Made by a program: the position numbers and the translations under genes. A DNA stretch of 32,643 bases. It comes from Clostridia bacterium (GTDB taxonomy: Bacteria > Bacillota > Clostridia > Christensenellales > Aristaeellaceae). The stretch spans positions 1 through 32,643 of the forward strand of contig JAFWQU010000022.1 of NCBI GenBank assembly GCA_017508975.1. Direction: 5' to 3'. Below are positions 407-29,767 of the stretch, one piece after another (within the stretch, counting starts at the first letter, position 1; each line of letters opens with the position of its first letter). The notes below the pieces were generated by a model. It saw nothing but the letters and a program-made list of their open reading frames with translations. It was not told the origin of the DNA and ran no database searches.

Positions 407-448
407 GATTCCAGACGGAAAACAAACGAACACCAGGGAGGGATGAGC

Positions 449-2413
449 ATGCGGAAAACCCTGTCGTCAATCCTGCTGCTGATGCTGGCGGTGAGCGTGT
501 GTCTCACGGCGCAGGCGGAGAACCCGATGAAGACCGCGGAGGCGATGACGTTCTTCTCCGGCGTCGCGGGCCGCGTGGCGTTTGCGCTGCCGGGCGTGCC
601 GGAGATGGTCTCGGAGATGGACGTGCCGGACTATTTCACGGACAGCCGGCAGCTGATGGGCTCCTGCGTGGAGGACGGGACGGAGTACCAGCTGCGCAGC
701 GGCGACATCCGCGAGATGATCGACGGCGTGCGCGAGGAGATGACCGCGCAGTGGCCGGACGTGGAGGAGGATATCGTCCGCCTCAACGCGCTGATGAACT
801 ACTGCTTCATGTTCCCGCGGACCTACGGCGCGGAACTGCAGCAGACGGACCCCCACGGAGACAGGGAGACCGGCTGGCTCTGGATCGACTATACCTTCAC
901 CTACCCGGACGCGCCGGGCGTCACCTACTACGGCAAGGCCATGCTGGCGGACACCTGGGCGACGGGCCTCGTGATCGAGGAGTGCCCGCACGCGCAGGAG
1001 GTGCTCGGCCGGCTCCGCTTCCTGACGGACGAGGAGCTGGAGGCGGAGAAGGCCGCAATGGAGCAGGAGACCGTGCTCCCGTTCCACGGCCTGGAGATCA
1101 CCTTCCCCCGGGAGCCGGTCACCTATGAGATCAACGGCGCGGAGCTGGCGGCCGCCTTCTCTGCGGACTGGTCCTACCTGTCGGTGCAGTACCAGGCGGC
1201 CAGCCTGGTGCTGAACCTGGAGGGCGAGGCGCTGCAGGCGAAGCTGGTCGAGATCGCCCGGGAGCGGATGCTGGTGCCCTTCAAGACCAAGCAGGTGAAC
1301 GATCCGGCGATGTCCTTCCCCGCGGAGGGGATCGCCCAGCTGGACTTCACGAGCGTGAACGAGTCGACCCTCGGACAGTACGGCCAGCCCATGCGCTGCC
1401 GCCTGTACGCGGGGGAGAAGGGCGTGTGGTACGTCTACGCGGCGGACACAGACACCGGCCGTGCTTTCCTGGACGCCCTGCGCTTCACCGACGGGGAGAG
1501 GATCCAGCCCGCGAAGACCTTCCCGCAGTTCCGGGCGAACCTGGAGAAGCTGCTGCCGGAGGGCTCGCTCGTCTGGGCGGACGCGATCTGCTCGGACGGC
1601 GAGTGGGTGCGCGTCGGCATCAACCCGGAGACCGACCTGGGCGGCATTCTGGCGTATGTGGACAGCTCGGCGGAGGACGCCGCGGTCCGCGAGGTGCGCG
1701 TGCTGCAGATGGACGGCATGAGCGGCGAGACGCTGCTGGTGGCGGGGAAGTGCGCCAGAGCCCTCAGCGGCGAGGCGGTGACCCTGGCAGCGCCCACGCC
1801 TGAGGAGGCGGTGCAGACCGCCGGCGGCGTGCAGGTCAGCGTGCAGCATTTCGACCCGGCGGATTCCACGCTCGTCTATGACCGCGTACGCCTGGTGCCC
1901 GCGGAGGTGCCGGAGAAGCGCGAGGAGATCCGCTATCCCGAGGAAGAGAACGTCGCGCCGTTTGAGAACGGGCCCACCGCCGCGGAGTTCGAAGCGCGCC
2001 TGGCGCGGCTCAAGCCGAGAATCCTCCCGGACGAGATCCCGGTGCAGTTCGTCACGGAGAGCAGTTCCGCCAATGGCCCGGCCCGGGGCTACCTCGTCGG
2101 GAACTCAACCATGCTCCTGCTCTATCTCGACGGCGAGGGCGAGGACGCGCGGATCAACCTGGCGGTGATTGTGGACCTCGGGGAGAACGCGCCGCAGGTC
2201 GTGGGCACGACGCTGCTCACCTTCGCGATCCTGACCGACGCGAGCGACGAGGACTGCGCGGCGATGAGCTATATCCTCCTGGAGACCCCGATGTGGGACC
2301 AGCTGGCGGACCGCTGGCCCTACCTGTGCAGGGGCAATCTCTGCGCCCACCTGCAGGAGGGCGGCGACGAGGAGAACTGGCAGCCGATGGGATTTATTGC
2401 GGGGAGACCGTGA
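449..2413 (+). CDS. Large secreted protein of unknown function
   Basis: A 654-residue protein with a clear N-terminal signal peptide: two positive residues, a Leu-rich core, and AQA followed by Glu as a likely signal peptidase I site near residue 23. There is no lipobox Cys. I prefer the ATG at 449 over the one at 443 because the AGGGAGG ribosome site (435-441) is seven bases from 449 but only one from 443. The mature part is acidic, predicted mixed alpha/beta, and has no transmembrane segment or catalytic motif that I recognise. It may contain two related lobes, but I cannot show this by eye. It is monocistronic: its own promoter lies upstream and a repeat-rich gap downstream. The function is unknown; an extracytoplasmic location is well supported. 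Confidence 0.8.
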   Translation: MRKTLSSILLLMLAVSVCLTAQAENPMKTAEAMTFFSGVAGRVAFALPGVPEMVSEMDVPDYFTDSRQLMGSCVEDGTEYQLRSGDIREMIDGVREEMTAQWPDVEEDIVRLNALMNYCFMFPRTYGAELQQTDPHGDRETGWLWIDYTFTYPDAPGVTYYGKAMLADTWATGLVIEECPHAQEVLGRLRFLTDEELEAEKAAMEQETVLPFHGLEITFPREPVTYEINGAELAAAFSADWSYLSVQYQAASLVLNLEGEALQAKLVEIARERMLVPFKTKQVNDPAMSFPAEGIAQLDFTSVNESTLGQYGQPMRCRLYAGEKGVWYVYAADTDTGRAFLDALRFTDGERIQPAKTFPQFRANLEKLLPEGSLVWADAICSDGEWVRVGINPETDLGGILAYVDSSAEDAAVREVRVLQMDGMSGETLLVAGKCARALSGEAVTLAAPTPEEAVQTAGGVQVSVQHFDPADSTLVYDRVRLVPAEVPEKREEIRYPEEENVAPFENGPTAAEFEARLARLKPRILPDEIPVQFVTESSSANGPARGYLVGNSTMLLLYLDGEGEDARINLAVIVDLGENAPQVVGTTLLTFAILTDASDEDCAAMSYILLETPMWDQLADRWPYLCRGNLCAHLQEGGDEENWQPMGFIAGRP

Positions 2414-2430: not shown

Positions 2431-2465
2431 TGCCGCTGTCGCGGCATCTCCCCAGCAAGCTGGGG
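2431..2465 (+). repeat. Pair of short hairpins after the secreted-protein gene
   Basis: Two adjacent perfect hairpins: TGCCGC/GCGGCA (2431-2446, loop TGTC) and CCCCAGC/GCTGGGG (2450-2465, loop AA). They start 18 bases after the stop at 2413 and have no T-tract, so they are not a classical terminator. They may act in mRNA 3'-end protection or be part of a dispersed palindromic repeat. Confidence 0.5.
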
Positions 2466-2499
2466 CGACACAGGTACCTGGACAATGCTGGCCCGAACA

Positions 2500-2587
2500 C
2501 TCCAAAAGAGTGCACCCCGAAGGAGTCCAGAGGGCGATCGGAAAGCCCTCTGGTCGTGGCCCGCAGGCCACGAAATCTCACTGTTGA
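2500..2587 (+). repeat. Dispersed two-hairpin element, copy 1
   Basis: Shares a left block (CTCCAAA, GTGCACC, CCGAAGG) with copy 2. Then hairpin 1 is CCAGAGGGC/GCCCTCTGG (2527-2553) with loop GATCGGAAA, and hairpin 2 is CGTGGCC/GGCCACG (2555-2572) with loop CGCA. It ends AAATCTC, three bases, GTTGA. Compared with copies 2 and 3, both stems differ on both sides so that pairing is kept, while loop 1 is identical. Confidence 0.75.
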
Positions 2588-2824: not shown

Positions 2825-3505
2825 TTATTCCACCAGCTCCGAAAGGCCTCCGATCTCCCGGCAGTCGGGCGGGAGTGCCGTGCGGGGCGGGGACTGGCGG
2901 GTGTGCAGATAGAGGGACGGGATGCCGCAGCGGTGGGCGCCCCAGCAGTCGCATTGGGCGTCGTTGCCCACCATCACGCACTCCGACGGAGAGACGCCCA
3001 GCGCTCCGAGCGTGCCGTAGAAGGCCGGGGAGGGCTTGCGGACGCCAACCTCGCTGGAGAGCAGGATCCCGTCGAAGGCGTCGGCCAGGCCGAGCAGGCG
3101 CAGCTCCGGGCGCGTCCAGCAGGCCTGCGCGTTGGAGAGCAGAATCAGCCGGCGGCCGGAGGCGCGCAGCGCGGCCAGCACCTGCCGCGCGTCGGGAAAG
3201 CAGCGCAGCACATGGGTGGAGCGCTCCCGGAAGAACCACAGCACCTGCCGCAGGGGCGCGCCGGTGAGCCCGGTCAGCCGCTGCCAGACCCGGGCGAGAT
3301 CCGGCTCGCCGAACTCGTCGCCCGCGGCGAGGAACGCCTCCCGCGTCCCGCGGTCCACCGCGCGGCGCAGGGCAAGCGCGTCCCAGGGGCGCCCCAGACA
3401 TGCGGCGGTCTCCTGCCAGAGGAGGGGGTCGGCCTCGTCCGTATGGATATCCACCAGGGTGCCGTAGAGGTCGAAGACCACCACGGGCGGCAGCGCGCTA
3501 CGCAT
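2825..3505 (-). CDS. HAD-superfamily hydrolase
   Basis: A 226-residue Rossmann-type HAD hydrolase. Motif I is FDLYGTL (nucleophile Asp12), motif II has Ser124 (LLSN), motif III Lys157 (VRKPSP), and motif IV Asp182/Asp186 (VGNDAQCD). The second Asp of the usual DxD phosphatase motif is Tyr14, which gives the DxYGT form known from 2-haloacid dehalogenases and from some uncharacterised HAD proteins. Substrate is therefore uncertain; a sugar-phosphate phosphatase or a dehalogenase-like activity are both possible. The ATG at 3505 lies inside the 3' end of the GH28 gene (8-base overlap), so the two are probably translationally coupled. The MITE-like element abuts its 3' end. Confidence 0.85.
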   Translation of the reverse strand: MRSALPPVVVFDLYGTLVDIHTDEADPLLWQETAACLGRPWDALALRRAVDRGTREAFLAAGDEFGEPDLARVWQRLTGLTGAPLRQVLWFFRERSTHVLRCFPDARQVLAALRASGRRLILLSNAQACWTRPELRLLGLADAFDGILLSSEVGVRKPSPAFYGTLGALGVSPSECVMVGNDAQCDCWGAHRCGIPSLYLHTRQSPPRTALPPDCREIGGLSELVE

Positions 3506-7319: not shown

Positions 7320-7353
7320 ATGTTTTGGCGGCCGGGGCGGCATAGAGAGATTT

Positions 7354-7369
7354 CGCGCCCGCAGGCGCG
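7354..7369. repeat. Fragment of the dispersed element (hairpin 2 only)
   Basis: The 16-mer CGCGCCCGCAGGCGCG is identical to hairpin 2 of copies 2 and 3. Read on the minus strand it is followed by AAATCTC, as in copies 1 and 3. Hairpin 1 is missing, so this is a degenerate or solo half element. Confidence 0.5.
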
Positions 7370-7380
7370 GAATCAGTTTG

Positions 7381-8092: not shown

Positions 8093-9226
8093 ATGCTGGC
8101 AAAGACACCCCCGATGGGATTCAATACCTGGAACACATTCGGCAGCGCGATCAACGAGCAGCTGATTCACGAGAGCGCGGACGCGATGGTGGACACCGGG
8201 CTGGCGGCGGCGGGCTATCAGTATCTGGTGATCGACGACTGCTGGTCGGAGTATCTGCGCGATCCGCAGACCCACCGCCTGGTGGCGAAGAAGGAGAAAT
8301 TCCCCAACGGCATGAAGGCCGTGGCCGACTATGTACACTCCAAGGGGCTCAAGTTCGGCATGTACTCCTGTGACGGCGTGCGCACCTGCGCGGACTATCC
8401 GGGCTCGTTCGACCACGAGTTCCTGGACGCGAAGACCTTCGCCGAGTGGGGCGTGGACTTCCTGAAGTATGACAACTGCTACCGCCCCGCGACCTCCGAC
8501 CAGCGCAACCTCTACGCGCGGATGGGCATGGCGCTGCGGGCCAGCGGGCGCGAGATCCTCTTCTCCGCCTGCAACTGGGGCCAGGAGGGCCCCTGGGACT
8601 GGATGCGCTCGGTGGGCGCGCATATGTACCGCTCCACGGGCGACATTTTCGACAACCCGGAGAGCTACCGGAACATCGCCCGGAGCCAGATTCCGCACCT
8701 GGGCGCCTCCGCGCCGGGCTGCTTCAACGACATCGACATGCTGACCGTCGGCATGTACGGCAAGGGCAACGTGGGCACGCAGGGCTGCAACGATGCCGAC
8801 TACAGGAGCCAGTTCTCGCTGTGGTGCCTGTACTCCGCGCCGCTGATGCTCGGCTGCGATGTGCGGAACATGACGCCCTTCATCCACGGCCTGGTGACCA
8901 ACCGCGAGCTGATCGCCTTCAACCAGGACCCCGAGGCGCGGCCGCCGATCTTCCTGGACGGCCAGGGCGACGAGAGCCGCACAATCACCTGCATGAAGTT
9001 CCTCGCCGACGGCGATTATGCGATCGGCCTGTTCAACATTACCGAAAACGACCGGGAGATCCACATGCTCTTCACGGACCTCGGCCTGCCCTTCGACTCC
9101 GGCTACGGCCTGCAGCTGACGGATGTCTTCACCGGGGAGGACGCCGGGTTCTACCGCGAGTACTTCCGGACGAAGGTTGCCGCCCACGACTGCGCGGTCT
9201 TCCGGGCGAAGCTGAGCCGCGGCTGA
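8093..9226 (+). CDS. Alpha-galactosidase, glycoside hydrolase family 27
   Basis: A 377-residue (beta/alpha)8 barrel enzyme with a short C-terminal beta domain. It opens with the family signature [10 protein letters not shown] (residues 5-14) and YLVIDDCW (44-51). The nucleophile is Asp127 in LKYDNC, and the acid/base Asp lies in FNDIDML (211-217; usually NDPDML). GH27 enzymes release terminal alpha-galactose from raffinose-type sugars or galactomannan. There is no signal peptide, so the substrate is probably imported first. The AGGAGGG site (8079-8085) is seven bases before the ATG. The stop overlaps the start of the next gene by one base (TGATG), so the two are co-translated. Confidence 0.93.
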
Positions 9227-9420
9227 TGGCCGGCTGCGTGAAGTGCGGCAAGGCGCCGCTGACACAGACGGAGATCGGGCTGACCCAAAAGCTCTGCAAC
9301 CGCGGCGCCACCCGGTTCTTCTGCCTGCACTGCCTCTCGGAGCGCTTCCGCATCACCGAACAGCAGCTGCTGGATCTCGCGGAATCCTTCCGGCAGAGCG
9401 GATGTACGCTGTTCCAGTGA
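9226..9420 (+). CDS. Small zinc-ribbon protein (64 residues)
   Basis: ATG at 9226-9228 overlaps the alpha-galactosidase stop. The protein has two CxxC knuckles, CVKC at residues 4-7 and CLHC at 33-36, around a stretch with CNRGATRFF, then a helical tail ending SGCTLFQ. The arrangement MxCxxCGK...LxxKLxNRGA..FxCxxCL...CTLF resembles a widespread but uncharacterised small-protein family in Clostridia; I recall this pattern but cannot verify it here. It should bind one zinc ion and be cytoplasmic. The reading frame, composition and overlap support a real gene despite its small size. Its relation to the galactosidase is unclear and may be just shared transcription. Confidence 0.8.
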
Positions 9421-9444
9421 TTCTCATCCCTGAAATATCGACAT

Positions 9445-9523
9445 CTCCAAACGGGTGCACCCCGAAGGTCCAGGGCGATCGGAAAGCCCTGGTCGCGCCC
9501 GCAGGCGCGAAATCCCGCCGTTG
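9445..9523 (+). repeat. Dispersed two-hairpin element, copy 2
   Basis: Left block CTCCAAA...GTGCACC, CCGAAGG (9462-9468). Hairpin 1 is CCAGGGC/GCCCTGG (9470-9492) around loop GATCGGAAA; hairpin 2 is CGCGCC/GGCGCG (9494-9509) around CGCA. Right end AAATCCC, three bases, GTTG. It lies between the zinc-ribbon gene and the shared terminator. Confidence 0.75.
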
Positions 9524-9559
9524 CTTTTTATGCCCTGATTGAAGACCAGAAAGACATAG

Positions 9560-9600
9560 AAAACCCGCCTGCTCTCGGAATGAGAACCAGGCGGGATTTT
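9560..9600. terminator. Bidirectional terminator between convergent genes
   Basis: Stem AAAACCCGCCTG / CAGGCGGG-ATTTT with A-tract and T-tract on either side, and a second small inner stem (CTC/GAG). It can end the plus-strand galactosidase transcript and the long minus-strand cluster that finishes with ddl at 9606. Confidence 0.85.
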
Positions 9601-9605
9601 GCTGC

Positions 9606-10829
9606 TCAGAACTTGGAGCCCTTCGACCCCTTGGAGCCCTTCGCACCCTTCGCGCCGAGCTTGGCGCCCTTGAGGATGTCGGAGGTAAAGACGAAGGTGC
9701 GGGCGTTTTTCTCCTCCCAGGCCTTGCGGGCCAGGGCGACCATGCGGTCGATCAGCACGCTGTATTTCACGCCCGCGGCCTCCCAGAGATAGAAGGCCAG
9801 GGAGCCGGGGATCGTGTTGATCTCGGTGATGAACAATTGGTCGGTCACGCGGTCCCACATATAGTCGATGCGGACGACGCCCTTGCAGTCCAGCTCGCGG
9901 AAGATCTCTTTGGACAGCGCCTGAATGCGGTCGCGCTGCTCGTCGGGGATCGGGGCGGGGAGCACGCGGCTGAGGCTCGCCATGCCGCCGCTCTTGGTGC
10001 CGCCGCCGGCCAGGTATTTCTTGCCGAAGTCCAGCAGATCGCCGGAGGAGATGGGCATCTCCACCGGGGAGGCCTCCATCTCGCCGTCGAAGCCGAGCAC
10101 AGAGCAGTTGAGCTCGATCGGGTGGTCGAGACCCTGCTCGACCAGCACGCGCCGGTCGTACTCAAAGGCCAGCTCCAGGGCGTCCATCAGTCCCTCGCGG
10201 TCGTTGGCGCGGGTAACGCCGATGGAGGAGCCCAGGTTGGCGGGCTTGACGAAGACGGGGTAAGGCAGCTCCCTCTCCACCTTCTCGGCGACTGCCTGCG
10301 GATCGCGCCGGAAATCGGAGGCGCTGAACCAGCAGCCCGGCAGTACCGGGAAGCCGCAGCCCTGGAAGCAGCGCTTCATCAGGATCTTGTCCATGCCGAT
10401 GGCGCTGCCCGCGACGCCGGTGGAGGTGTAGGGCAGGTTCGCCAGCTCCAGGAGACCCTGCAGCGTGCCGTCCTCGCCGTGCAGGCCGTGCATCACGATC
10501 AGGCAGACCTCCAGGCGCGCGACCATGACCTGCTCGGGCTTGCCAAAGAGCCCCTTGCCCGGGCGCGTGGTCATCAGCGCGCCGCTGCCGGCGGTCAGGT
10601 CCAGATGCACCTGCTCCACCTTGAGCTTCGCCGGGTCGAAATCCACGAAGCTTTCGATGCGCCGCAGCGCCGCGCCGGTGTACCAGCGGCCGTCGGGGGC
10701 GATATAGACGGGGATCAGGTCATAACGCTCCGGGTCTACGTGGTTCATCAGCTGCACCGCGGAGATGATGGCCACCTCGCGCTCGCAGCTGCGGGAGCCG
10801 AAGATGACGCCGAGTTGAGTTTTCTGCAT
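9606..10829 (-). CDS. ddl: D-alanine--D-alanine ligase with a Lys/Gly/Ser repeat tail
   Basis: A 407-residue ATP-grasp enzyme that joins two D-alanines for peptidoglycan. Visible motifs are HGLHGEDGTLQG (114-125), STGVAGSAIGMDK (136-148), FVKPANLGSSIGV (193-205), DFGKKYLAGGGTKSGG in the omega loop (Lys271-Tyr272, the pair typical of D-Ala-D-Ala rather than D-Ala-D-Lac enzymes), and ITEINTIPGS (334-343). The catalytic core ends near residue 385. Residues 387-407 are a low-complexity basic tail (KGAK, LGAK, GAKGSKGSKGSK) that ordinary Ddl proteins lack. murF lies 11 bases upstream, so the dipeptide and its ligase are made together. Last gene of the long cluster. Confidence 0.95.
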   Translation of the reverse strand: MQKTQLGVIFGSRSCEREVAIISAVQLMNHVDPERYDLIPVYIAPDGRWYTGAALRRIESFVDFDPAKLKVEQVHLDLTAGSGALMTTRPGKGLFGKPEQVMVARLEVCLIVMHGLHGEDGTLQGLLELANLPYTSTGVAGSAIGMDKILMKRCFQGCGFPVLPGCWFSASDFRRDPQAVAEKVERELPYPVFVKPANLGSSIGVTRANDREGLMDALELAFEYDRRVLVEQGLDHPIELNCSVLGFDGEMEASPVEMPISSGDLLDFGKKYLAGGGTKSGGMASLSRVLPAPIPDEQRDRIQALSKEIFRELDCKGVVRIDYMWDRVTDQLFITEINTIPGSLAFYLWEAAGVKYSVLIDRMVALARKAWEEKNARTFVFTSDILKGAKLGAKGAKGSKGSKGSKF

Positions 10830-29605: not shown

Positions 29606-29668
29606 CCGAAGGTCCAGGGCGATCGGAAAGCCCTGGTCGCGCCCGCAGGCGCGAAATCTCTTCGTTGA
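29606..29668 (+). repeat. Dispersed two-hairpin element, copy 3
   Basis: CCGAAGG (29606-29612); hairpin 1 CCAGGGC/GCCCTGG (29614-29636) with loop GATCGGAAA; hairpin 2 CGCGCC/GGCGCG (29638-29653) with loop CGCA; right end AAATCTC, three bases, GTTGA. The core is identical to copy 2, but the left flank (CATGTGG) differs. Confidence 0.75.
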
Positions 29669-29713: not shown

Positions 29714-29767
29714 TCAGTGCTTCGCACTGACCAGAGGGCTTTCCGATCGCCCTCTGGACTCCTTCGG
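29714..29767 (-). repeat. Dispersed two-hairpin element, copy 4 (inverted)
   Basis: On the minus strand: CCGAAGG (29761-29767), hairpin 1 CCAGAGGGC/GCCCTCTGG (29731-29757) with loop GATCGGAAA, hairpin 2 CAGTGC/GCACTG (29715-29729) with loop GAA. Hairpin 2 is different in sequence from the other copies but still a perfect stem. Copy 4 faces copy 3 across 45 bases. Confidence 0.7.

Follow-up and report, generated by a model that had tools for sequence, protein, structure and literature searches.

A short repeated element of Clostridia and viral contigs may act as single-stranded DNA at gene ends, folded into a class I purine-motif intrastrand triplex that is pinned by a pseudoknot; we give this whole account a probability of roughly 0.45. 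At the level of sequence, the comparative evidence shows a paired stem, a pseudoknot pair, a correspondence between a third strand and the stem, placement at the ends of genes, and gain and loss among phages. If the account holds, a natural DNA tertiary structure, i.e., a pseudoknot-pinned triplex on the template strand past stop codons in Clostridia and viral contigs, could be under selection, a proposal that we advance tentatively and at somewhat less than even odds.

Whether bacterial triplex DNA folds and matters in cells is a long-standing question. For the TM_ECO element, in vivo footprinting left the central guanines unprotected, although a polymerase stop was seen under assay conditions (PMC4666352). 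The natural variants of the element described here report on its fold, as the two-layer code of pseudoknot pair and third strand allows exact and separable changes. It is informative whether DNA or RNA proves to be the actor: if RNA acts, the element would be a pseudoknot of phage and host 3′ untranslated regions that matches no Rfam family in this analysis and follows an uncommon rule for its third strand.

Copies of the element in the window

The window, that is, the whole stretch of 32,643 nucleotides that was analysed, had been reported in a preliminary description to hold four full copies and a half copy of an intergenic two-hairpin element. All five were confirmed where it had placed them: both hairpins are fully paired in each full copy, loop 1 reads GATCGGAAA in 4/4, and the intergenic position is borne out for every copy, with genes taken from a home-made codon-usage caller. 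Strand K here means the strand that reads CCGAAGG...GATCGGAAA, the one described there; the opposite strand, i.e., its reverse complement, is termed the R strand. What the preliminary description missed were the pseudoknot, the third strand and the relation of the strands to the genes.

Copy 1 (2517–2573, plus strand) lies between the convergent genes 443–2413 (plus) and 2825–3505 (minus). It begins with CCGA (2517–2520) and the putative third strand AGGAGT (2521–2526), continues with the stem arm CCAGAGGGC (2527–2535), the loop GATCGGAAA (2536–2544) and the returning arm (2545–2553), and ends with hairpin 2, TCGTGGCC CGCA GGCCACGA (2554–2573). Copy 2 (9462–9516, plus strand) consists of CCGA (9462–9465), the putative third strand AGGT (9466–9469), the stem arm CCAGGGC (9470–9476), the loop (9477–9485), the returning arm (9486–9492) and hairpin 2 (9493–9510), followed by AATCCC. 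Its neighbours are a gene at 9226–9420 (plus) and a D-Ala-D-Ala ligase gene at 9606–10829 (minus), which ends in the low-complexity tail KGAKLGAKGAKGSKGSKGSKF (window 9606–9660, minus strand). Copy 3 (29606–29660, plus strand) comprises the core and hairpin 2 within flanks of family B (see below), the MITE ends of which are degenerate and not both recognised; it is located ~210 bp beyond the stop of the gene for ribosomal protein L1 (29873–30562, minus, PF00687). In copy 4 (29714–29767, minus strand; core 29731–29767), hairpin 2 is replaced by an unrelated hairpin, TCAGTGC TTC GCACTGA (29714–29730). The half copy (7353–7374, plus strand) is hairpin 2 alone.

The 14-mer GATCGGAAAGCCCT occurs exactly four times in the window, every time within a copy. 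When up to three mismatches were allowed, there were 10 matches compared to 3.80 expected, a number reached in 0 of 100 shuffles. The 22-mer of hairpin 2 gave four matches at the same tolerance, compared to 0.00 expected, and two of these are the half copy, one on each strand. Single-sequence folding, with z scores of −3.76 for copy 1 and −1.18 for copy 2, is not decisive by itself as evidence for the element. Rfam 15 had no match to the window at the gathering threshold and three weak matches at E ≤ 1 in eight loci, none of which overlapped an element.

Anatomy and distribution

On strand K, the core reads CCGA-L1-stem-GA(T/C)CGG-AAA-stem′, in which the linker L1 has mostly 4–9 nt and the first stem arm, S2a, mostly 7–10 nt, followed by the loop GA(T/C)CGG-AAA and the second arm, S2b. 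The element is mostly 31–43 nt long. An optional second module, hairpin 2, reads TCGCnnC CGCA GnnGCGA or a variant of it and is followed by AAT; its loop is mostly CGCA, and its stem varies yet stays paired. Hairpin 2 varies even within one assembly, that of the relative RUG095 (L015, L018, L026, L028, L044, L049, L054, L058, L060, L062). Of 12 copies read by eye there, 10 pair completely, one contains a mismatch and another a wobble, and the loop is mostly CGCA; hairpin 1 is constant in these loci since its exact sequence had been used to fetch them. In three copies, an insert with its own hairpin splits the 3′ arm of the main stem (GTCCG GCTG CGGAC in L001 280–393 and L005 1438–1551, minus strand; a related form in L021 near 2365).

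A pattern scan of the source genome (assembly of 1.52 Mb, 66% complete) with up to three mismatches gave 60 forward and 46 reverse matches, compared to 6 and 3 for a reversed control pattern. A covariance-model search of this genome, as suggested in the preliminary description, returned at least 150 matches to the model of core plus hairpin 2 (R1), with the best 150 of 3315 candidates scored; hairpin 1 was constant in the first model alignment, as most loci had been fetched by the exact hairpin-1 pattern. Three main forms of hairpin 2 account for 61, 39 and 11 of 121 copies in the source genome, and one form of hairpin 1 is dominant (108 of 125 copies).

Beyond the source genome, the exact hairpin-1 pattern was found in at least 54 stretches of Clostridia assemblies, several of them labelled rumen or omasum, and pattern scans of IMG/VR revealed that viral contigs carry the core as well. 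With at most 38 matches scored per genome, R1 was present in 25 of 150 genomes of the family (source genome included) and in 11 of 50 genera, with very unequal copy numbers. A core-only model (R2) was detected at E ≤ 1e-4 in six of 297 genomes of the order, five from one family including the source genome and one from another, and in a draw from the phylum in one of 398 genomes, the source genome itself; these searches used strict filters and best candidates only, and absence from them is not proof. The best match listed among plasmids had an E value of 0.007. In named phage records, the matches with E ≤ 0.01 were all in unverified human-faecal scaffolds and the others were weak. A literature search confined to PubMed Central open articles did not find the element in print.

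Covariation of the pseudoknot and the stem

The CGG of the loop is complementary to the CCG just upstream of L1, and the core would almost certainly fold as an H-type pseudoknot, with a stem of ~7–10 bp and the loop CGG paired with the upstream CCG. Among 356 copies with distinct flanks, 339 have CCG/CGG and 13 have GCG/CGC. The remaining cases are two CTG/CGG and one TCG/CGG, kept by wobble, and one broken CAG/CGG; neither CCG/CGC nor GCG/CGG occurs among the 356 copies, though the match rule permitted both. The match rule behind this tally fixed the third 5′ G and the middle G of the loop, which left the first pseudoknot pair as the only one able to vary on either side. Because CCG/CGG patterns had been used to fetch most of the loci, we scanned the 2.9 million contigs of IMG/VR with the matched GCG/CGC and both mixed patterns. 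Distinct sequences with a stem of at least 7 bp, identical ones counted once, numbered at least 75 for CCG/CGG, 14 for GCG/CGC and 0 for the mixed forms; as shares of the distinct matches to the constant part in viral contigs, these are 75/88, 14/24 and 0/18. The best two of the 12 CCG/CGC matches have 6 bp and no L1 signature, and none of the six GCG/CGG matches has more than 3 bp. Human-gut records fetched later contained 11 elements in 10 of 12 records, nine with CCG/CGG, two with GCG/CGC and none mixed. A further pair, between A and T, would be possible but is retained in just 14 of 26 elements, and we therefore claim three pseudoknot pairs, with compensatory change in only one of them.

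Two sets of distinct elements with 9-bp stems were compared, 26 whose L1 has 7 nt and 34 whose L1 has 6 nt. In each set, five of the nine pairs change on both sides, and the covariation score was reached by 0 of 500 shuffles. Two other measures of the stem test were weak: the number of pairs changed on both sides was as high in 19 (26-element set) and 57 (34-element set) of 500 shuffles, and that of further pair types in 469 and 22, respectively. Both sets were picked for a paired stem, and complete pairing is there by construction. When the 3′ partners were shifted by one column, the paired cells fell from 99.8% to 54–57%; only three cells were changed on one side, compared to 65 on both. Distinct elements are not independent events, as they fall into about ten stem classes (grouped by eye).

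The preliminary description took the covariation to imply selection on structure. This part of it is supported well beyond the four copies it had seen; there are few alleles in the source genome, and the wide covariation therefore comes from other genomes and from phages. For plain hairpins, however, the implication needs care. Quasi-palindromes are corrected by template switching during replication, which can make hairpin arms match, and some of the covariation in the stem may be due to this process. By our reasoning, it would give rise neither to the swap in the pseudoknot nor to the mirror-type third strand.

Correspondence between linker and stem

Read outward from the loop, L1 mirrors S2a: a G in the stem meets a G in L1, and an A in the stem meets T or A. 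Examples of L1 and stem are AGGTTT with AAAGGGC, AGGAGT with AGAGGGC, AGGTGG or AGGAGG with GGAGGGC, and AGGGGT with AGGGGGC, the constant A and G at the start of L1 being fixed by the search motif. In 64 distinct halves, 218 of 234 cells obey the rule (0.932, compared to a mean of 0.736 for shuffles within length classes; 0 of 5000). When the GCG forms were added, 250 of 272 cells in 74 distinct halves obeyed it (shuffled mean 194.0; 0 of 3000 shuffles) and 22 broke it. Opposite an A in the stem, L1 has T 57 times, A 17 times, C three times and G once. The mean longest mirror run reached a z score of 10.1, and mutual information, calculated for 40 halves with nine-bp stems, peaks along the mirror diagonal (0.74 for L1 position 4 and stem position 5, 0.67 for 5 and 6, 1.05 for 6 and 7). 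The rule extended to new material: 16 of 18 cells obeyed it in six halves first met in later loci, and 21 of 24 in unseen halves from the human-gut records. Furthermore, L1 tends to grow with the stem, measuring 4 nt in five of seven 7-bp stems and 6–7 nt in 35 of 44 9-bp stems (stem lengths capped at 9).

In the deep groove of the stem of an H-type pseudoknot, the linker would run antiparallel to S2a, as a purine-motif triplex needs. L1 probably serves as a third strand on the purine strand of the stem, with G.G-C, T.A-T and A.A-T triads. Class I purine-motif intrastrand triplexes are defined in PMC4666352 by this order of tracts, with the triads A(T).A-T and G.G-C. The element has the putative third strand, the purine tract and the pyrimidine tract in that order within one strand, and its covariation is that of an antiparallel third strand with G.G-C and A(T).A-T triads.

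Two other structures were considered and either rejected or weakened. A pyrimidine-motif triplex on the mRNA strand accounts for 193 of 272 cells, compared to 250 for the purine motif; it also beats the shuffles (z 7.8 compared to 8.9), since G.G and A.A cells are common to both motifs, but it leaves the 57 cells with T opposite A unexplained. A palindrome of double-stranded DNA bound by a dimer is argued against by the inverted repeats of stem and pseudoknot, which differ in their centre.

Placement at gene ends

All counts of placement rest on the home-made gene caller. In the source genome, the 121 copies with hairpin 2 comprise 37 R-sense, 27 R-antisense (p = 0.26), 42 convergent, seven divergent and four unflanked copies and four inside a called gene, and the background intergenic regions (window and a further set of stretches) comprise 14 convergent and 14 divergent ones. 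The strand bias in this genome is weak; its four copies without hairpin 2 include no R-sense and three antisense copies. Ratios of R-sense to antisense copies with hairpin 2 were 28:8 in other Clostridia assemblies and 18:3 in viral contigs, and the bias was absent in other relatives (6:8). Without hairpin 2, the ratios were 8:2, 40:10 and 0:0, respectively.

In viral contigs, with the GCG forms added, copies between codirectional neighbours were R-sense in 60 cases and antisense in 23. Of these R-sense copies, 35 of 60 begin −7 to +15 nt from the upstream stop codon. The 48 viral R-sense copies that lie within 40 nt of a stop codon are a median of 3.5 nt away from it, and the start that follows is a median of 60 nt away (47 copies). 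In 19 of these 48 phage copies, three or more T in a row stand 7–16 nt beyond the element, compared to 4 and 5 of 48 for the two subsequent windows of 10 nt; the corresponding numbers for viral antisense copies are 6 compared to 2 and 4 of 28, and host R-sense or convergent copies had no such contrast (59, 66 and 59 of 171). Of 47 upstream genes, 20 were scanned; they encode major head (4), portal (5), terminase large subunit (2), tape measure (1), major tail (1), baseplate (1) and primase/helicase (1) proteins and a protein of unknown family (1), with four genes lacking a match.

The idea of an mRNA 3′ element, raised in the preliminary description, is thus partly sustained: divergent promoter regions are avoided and viral copies often stand just past stop codons, but the mRNA in viral contigs usually carries the reverse complement of the strand that was described. 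One viral contig, IMGVR_UViG_3300031867_000329 (L299 and L285), has a region in which several CCG- and GCG-type elements are packed together with other hairpins; strand K is in the sense orientation of the genes here, unlike in most viral copies.

DNA or RNA as the acting molecule

Strand K as DNA fits the triad code best, since an A in the stem is most often faced by T in the third strand (57 of 78). According to PMC4666352, RNA cannot form purine-motif helices, and T.A-T triads do not translate into a pyrimidine motif on the opposite strand. Wobble counts give RNA no help: in 120 distinct stems G.T occurs eight times and A.C six times, in hairpin 2 five and four times, with no strand bias. 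A triad code of the DNA purine motif, together with G.U pairs that are not favoured, points to single-stranded DNA, whereas the placement near stop codons and the T-runs beyond the element in phages look like mRNA features and count against DNA. The weakness of the strand bias in the source genome and its absence in the other relatives also speak against the DNA account. On balance, DNA seems slightly favoured as the acting molecule, with RNA a serious contender at a little under even odds.

In the DNA account, the active form would be single-stranded DNA of the strand that is antisense (template) to the upstream gene. Once transcription or replication opens the duplex, the template strand might snap shut, and the folded strand could then serve as a physical stop sign at the end of the gene. 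The element would spread at the DNA level, as a MITE passenger in the source genome and, in phages, when intergenic segments are gained or swapped.

The strongest competitor, which we consider possible though doubtful, is an RNA element of the 3′ untranslated region, with the mRNA carrying the reverse complement. The order in the mRNA would be stop codon, stem, loop UUUCCGAUC, stem′, L3, (C)UUCGG, ~8 nt and a U-run, and the pseudoknot would pause or end transcription or block 3′-to-5′ exonucleases, thereby shielding the upstream, often capsid, message. Much of the placement evidence would be expected from such an element: the R-sense excess in viral contigs (60 compared to 23, with 35 of these 60 starting −7 to +15 nt from the stop) and in other assemblies (28 compared to 8 with and 8 compared to 2 without hairpin 2), the frequent capsid, portal or terminase genes upstream (11 of 20 scanned), the avoidance of divergent regions, and the T-run 7–16 nt beyond the element in 19 of 48 phage copies. 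However, G.U is no commoner than A.C on either strand, and on the mRNA strand the A of the stem faces a third-strand A 57 times and U 17 times, a pattern that fits no RNA triad code known to us. Moreover, no U-tract adjoins the stem, the strand bias is weak in the source genome, and the host copies are without the T-run contrast. A strict intrinsic terminator was rejected, as the scan of 9200–9700 found none and the T-runs sit 7–16 nt off the element, not directly after the hairpin.

Mobility

By a rule based on flanks, 61 of 120 copies in the source genome belong to family B, 21 to family A and 38 to other contexts. Family-B copies lie within a MITE-like element of 136–140 bp with imperfect terminal inverted repeats (ATACYAATCTCA). 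Both ends were recognised in 25 of the 120 copies, and in 18 of these 25 a single flanking base is repeated, and nothing longer. The L067 copy is inserted in a family-A repeat, other copies of which represent the empty site. Terminal inverted repeats and an empty site were found for family B only; as family A, other contexts and phages have the core too, the MITE seems to have carried the element without being its origin. Twelve relatives from the genus were too far (best gene matches 68–82% identical) to provide an empty site for a source-genome copy.

Several kinds of hairpin repeat adjoin one another in the source genome. Its family-A copies stand within composite repeats (window 2440–2500; L002 1330–1600, L005, L073, L087 and L318) that hold further perfect hairpins, e.g., CCCCAGC TT GCTGGGG. 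A fragment of an IS630-type transposase, cut by the contig end, is present in L341 at the end of contig C11, and none of six MITE-B end motifs was found in this locus. In L089, near 1321, tandem ATACCAATCTCTAGTA units that resemble the MITE-B end precede an element.

Between related phages, the element was present in both at 14 junctions and in one only at 13 and 4, where one junction may fall in several categories and reciprocal pairs are counted twice. A variant replacement was seen between L274 (CCG/CGG) and L382 (GCG/CGC), with 908 columns matched at ~95%. In the six phage alignments inspected, the changes span the intergenic stretch and sometimes the last codons too. A role as a rearrangement hot spot finds no support, the median intergenic identity being 0.69 where both relatives carry it and 0.685 where neither does. 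Short direct repeats (about GGAAAGGAGGA and GATCAGTRA) seem to flank the gains at L263 6394–6496 and L267 3865–3944; the other inspected junctions had either no visible direct repeats, or just purine tracts like ribosome-binding sites, or a palindromic hexamer (L264). We draw no conclusion about the insertion mechanism from these flanking repeats.

Other explanations and related systems

The preliminary description had suggested a REP-like element moved by a transposase in trans, and the element is dispersed, intergenic, structured and patchy between relatives. A RAYT-like (Y1, HUH) enzyme would be expected in this case, but Y1_Tnp (PF01797) had no match in the source genome (66% complete) and is absent in nine of 13 element-bearing genomes, seven of which are at least 92% complete; no transposon ends were seen in the core-only phage copies inspected. 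In its known form the suggestion lacks support, and we regard it as very improbable. Equally improbable is an attC-like recombination site that folds on the bottom strand at gene ends and is cut by a recombinase, so that the genes move as cassettes. Such a site would account for the folding of the antisense strand, the placement at stop codons, and the intergenic segments that are gained, lost or replaced between phages with flanks 77–99% identical; yet the inspected alignments held no clean cassette exchange, copies are mostly single and not in arrays, and where both relatives have the element, their junctions are altered no more than the controls.

An account without selection, in which template switching matched the arms and the copies are passengers, would explain why G.U intermediates are nearly absent, why double changes dominate, and why hairpin 2 of RUG095, despite its variation, pairs completely in 10 of 12 copies. 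It would not yield the swap from CCG/CGG to GCG/CGC across a separate stem, a third strand that is a mirror and not an inverted repeat, or the placement at gene ends, and we give it very little weight. Least probable of all is a switch in which L1 is an alternative Watson–Crick partner of the 3′ stem arm: some classes have a direct-repeat character (AGGGG compared to AGGGGG), but the direct-repeat z score is 1.4 compared to 10.1 for the mirror, and classes such as AGGTTT/AAAGGG fit the mirror only.

The closest known relatives of the candidate triplex are the PIT/BoxC/TM_ECO elements (PMC4666352), which likewise have reverse-Hoogsteen, purine and pyrimidine tracts consecutively on one strand, form the same triads (G.G-C, A(T).A-T), and are G/C-rich, dispersed and intergenic with copy numbers that differ sharply between relatives. 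TM_ECO, however, belongs to class II (pyrimidine tract first), whereas the present element would be class I, and that paper gives no phage association and no strand bias for TM_ECO, whereas the present element has phage copies and a gene-end placement (PMC4666352). Unlike TM_ECO as described there, the element has a conserved 9-nt pseudoknot loop, fewer triads (~3–6) and a co-varying third strand. The finder ITxF was limited to stems of 6–15 and loops of 1–6 nt (PMC4666352); the loop between the stem arms here has 9 nt and the triads number ~3–6, and the finder would thus miss the element. The element would work in the manner of a PIT element, but as it lies outside these limits and differs in class, pseudoknot and placement from what is described of TM_ECO and BoxC, we do not file it as a member.

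Other likenesses are more partial. In the H-type pseudoknots of telomerase RNA and of the preQ1-II and SAM-II riboswitches, linker 1 passes through the deep groove of stem 2, where it makes triples, like the linker proposed here. These RNA pseudoknots use U.A-U Hoogsteen triples parallel to the 3′-side purine strand, whereas the linker of the element is purine-rich and would run antiparallel to the 5′-side purine strand. REP/BIME sequences, which are associated with RAYT, are likewise short, palindromic, dispersed, intergenic and 3′ of genes; the element differs by its pseudoknot, its putative third strand, its phage copies and the nine of 13 carriers without a Y1 transposase. Finally, the 136–140-bp carrier of family B resembles a MITE, with the difference that the core is also found outside it.
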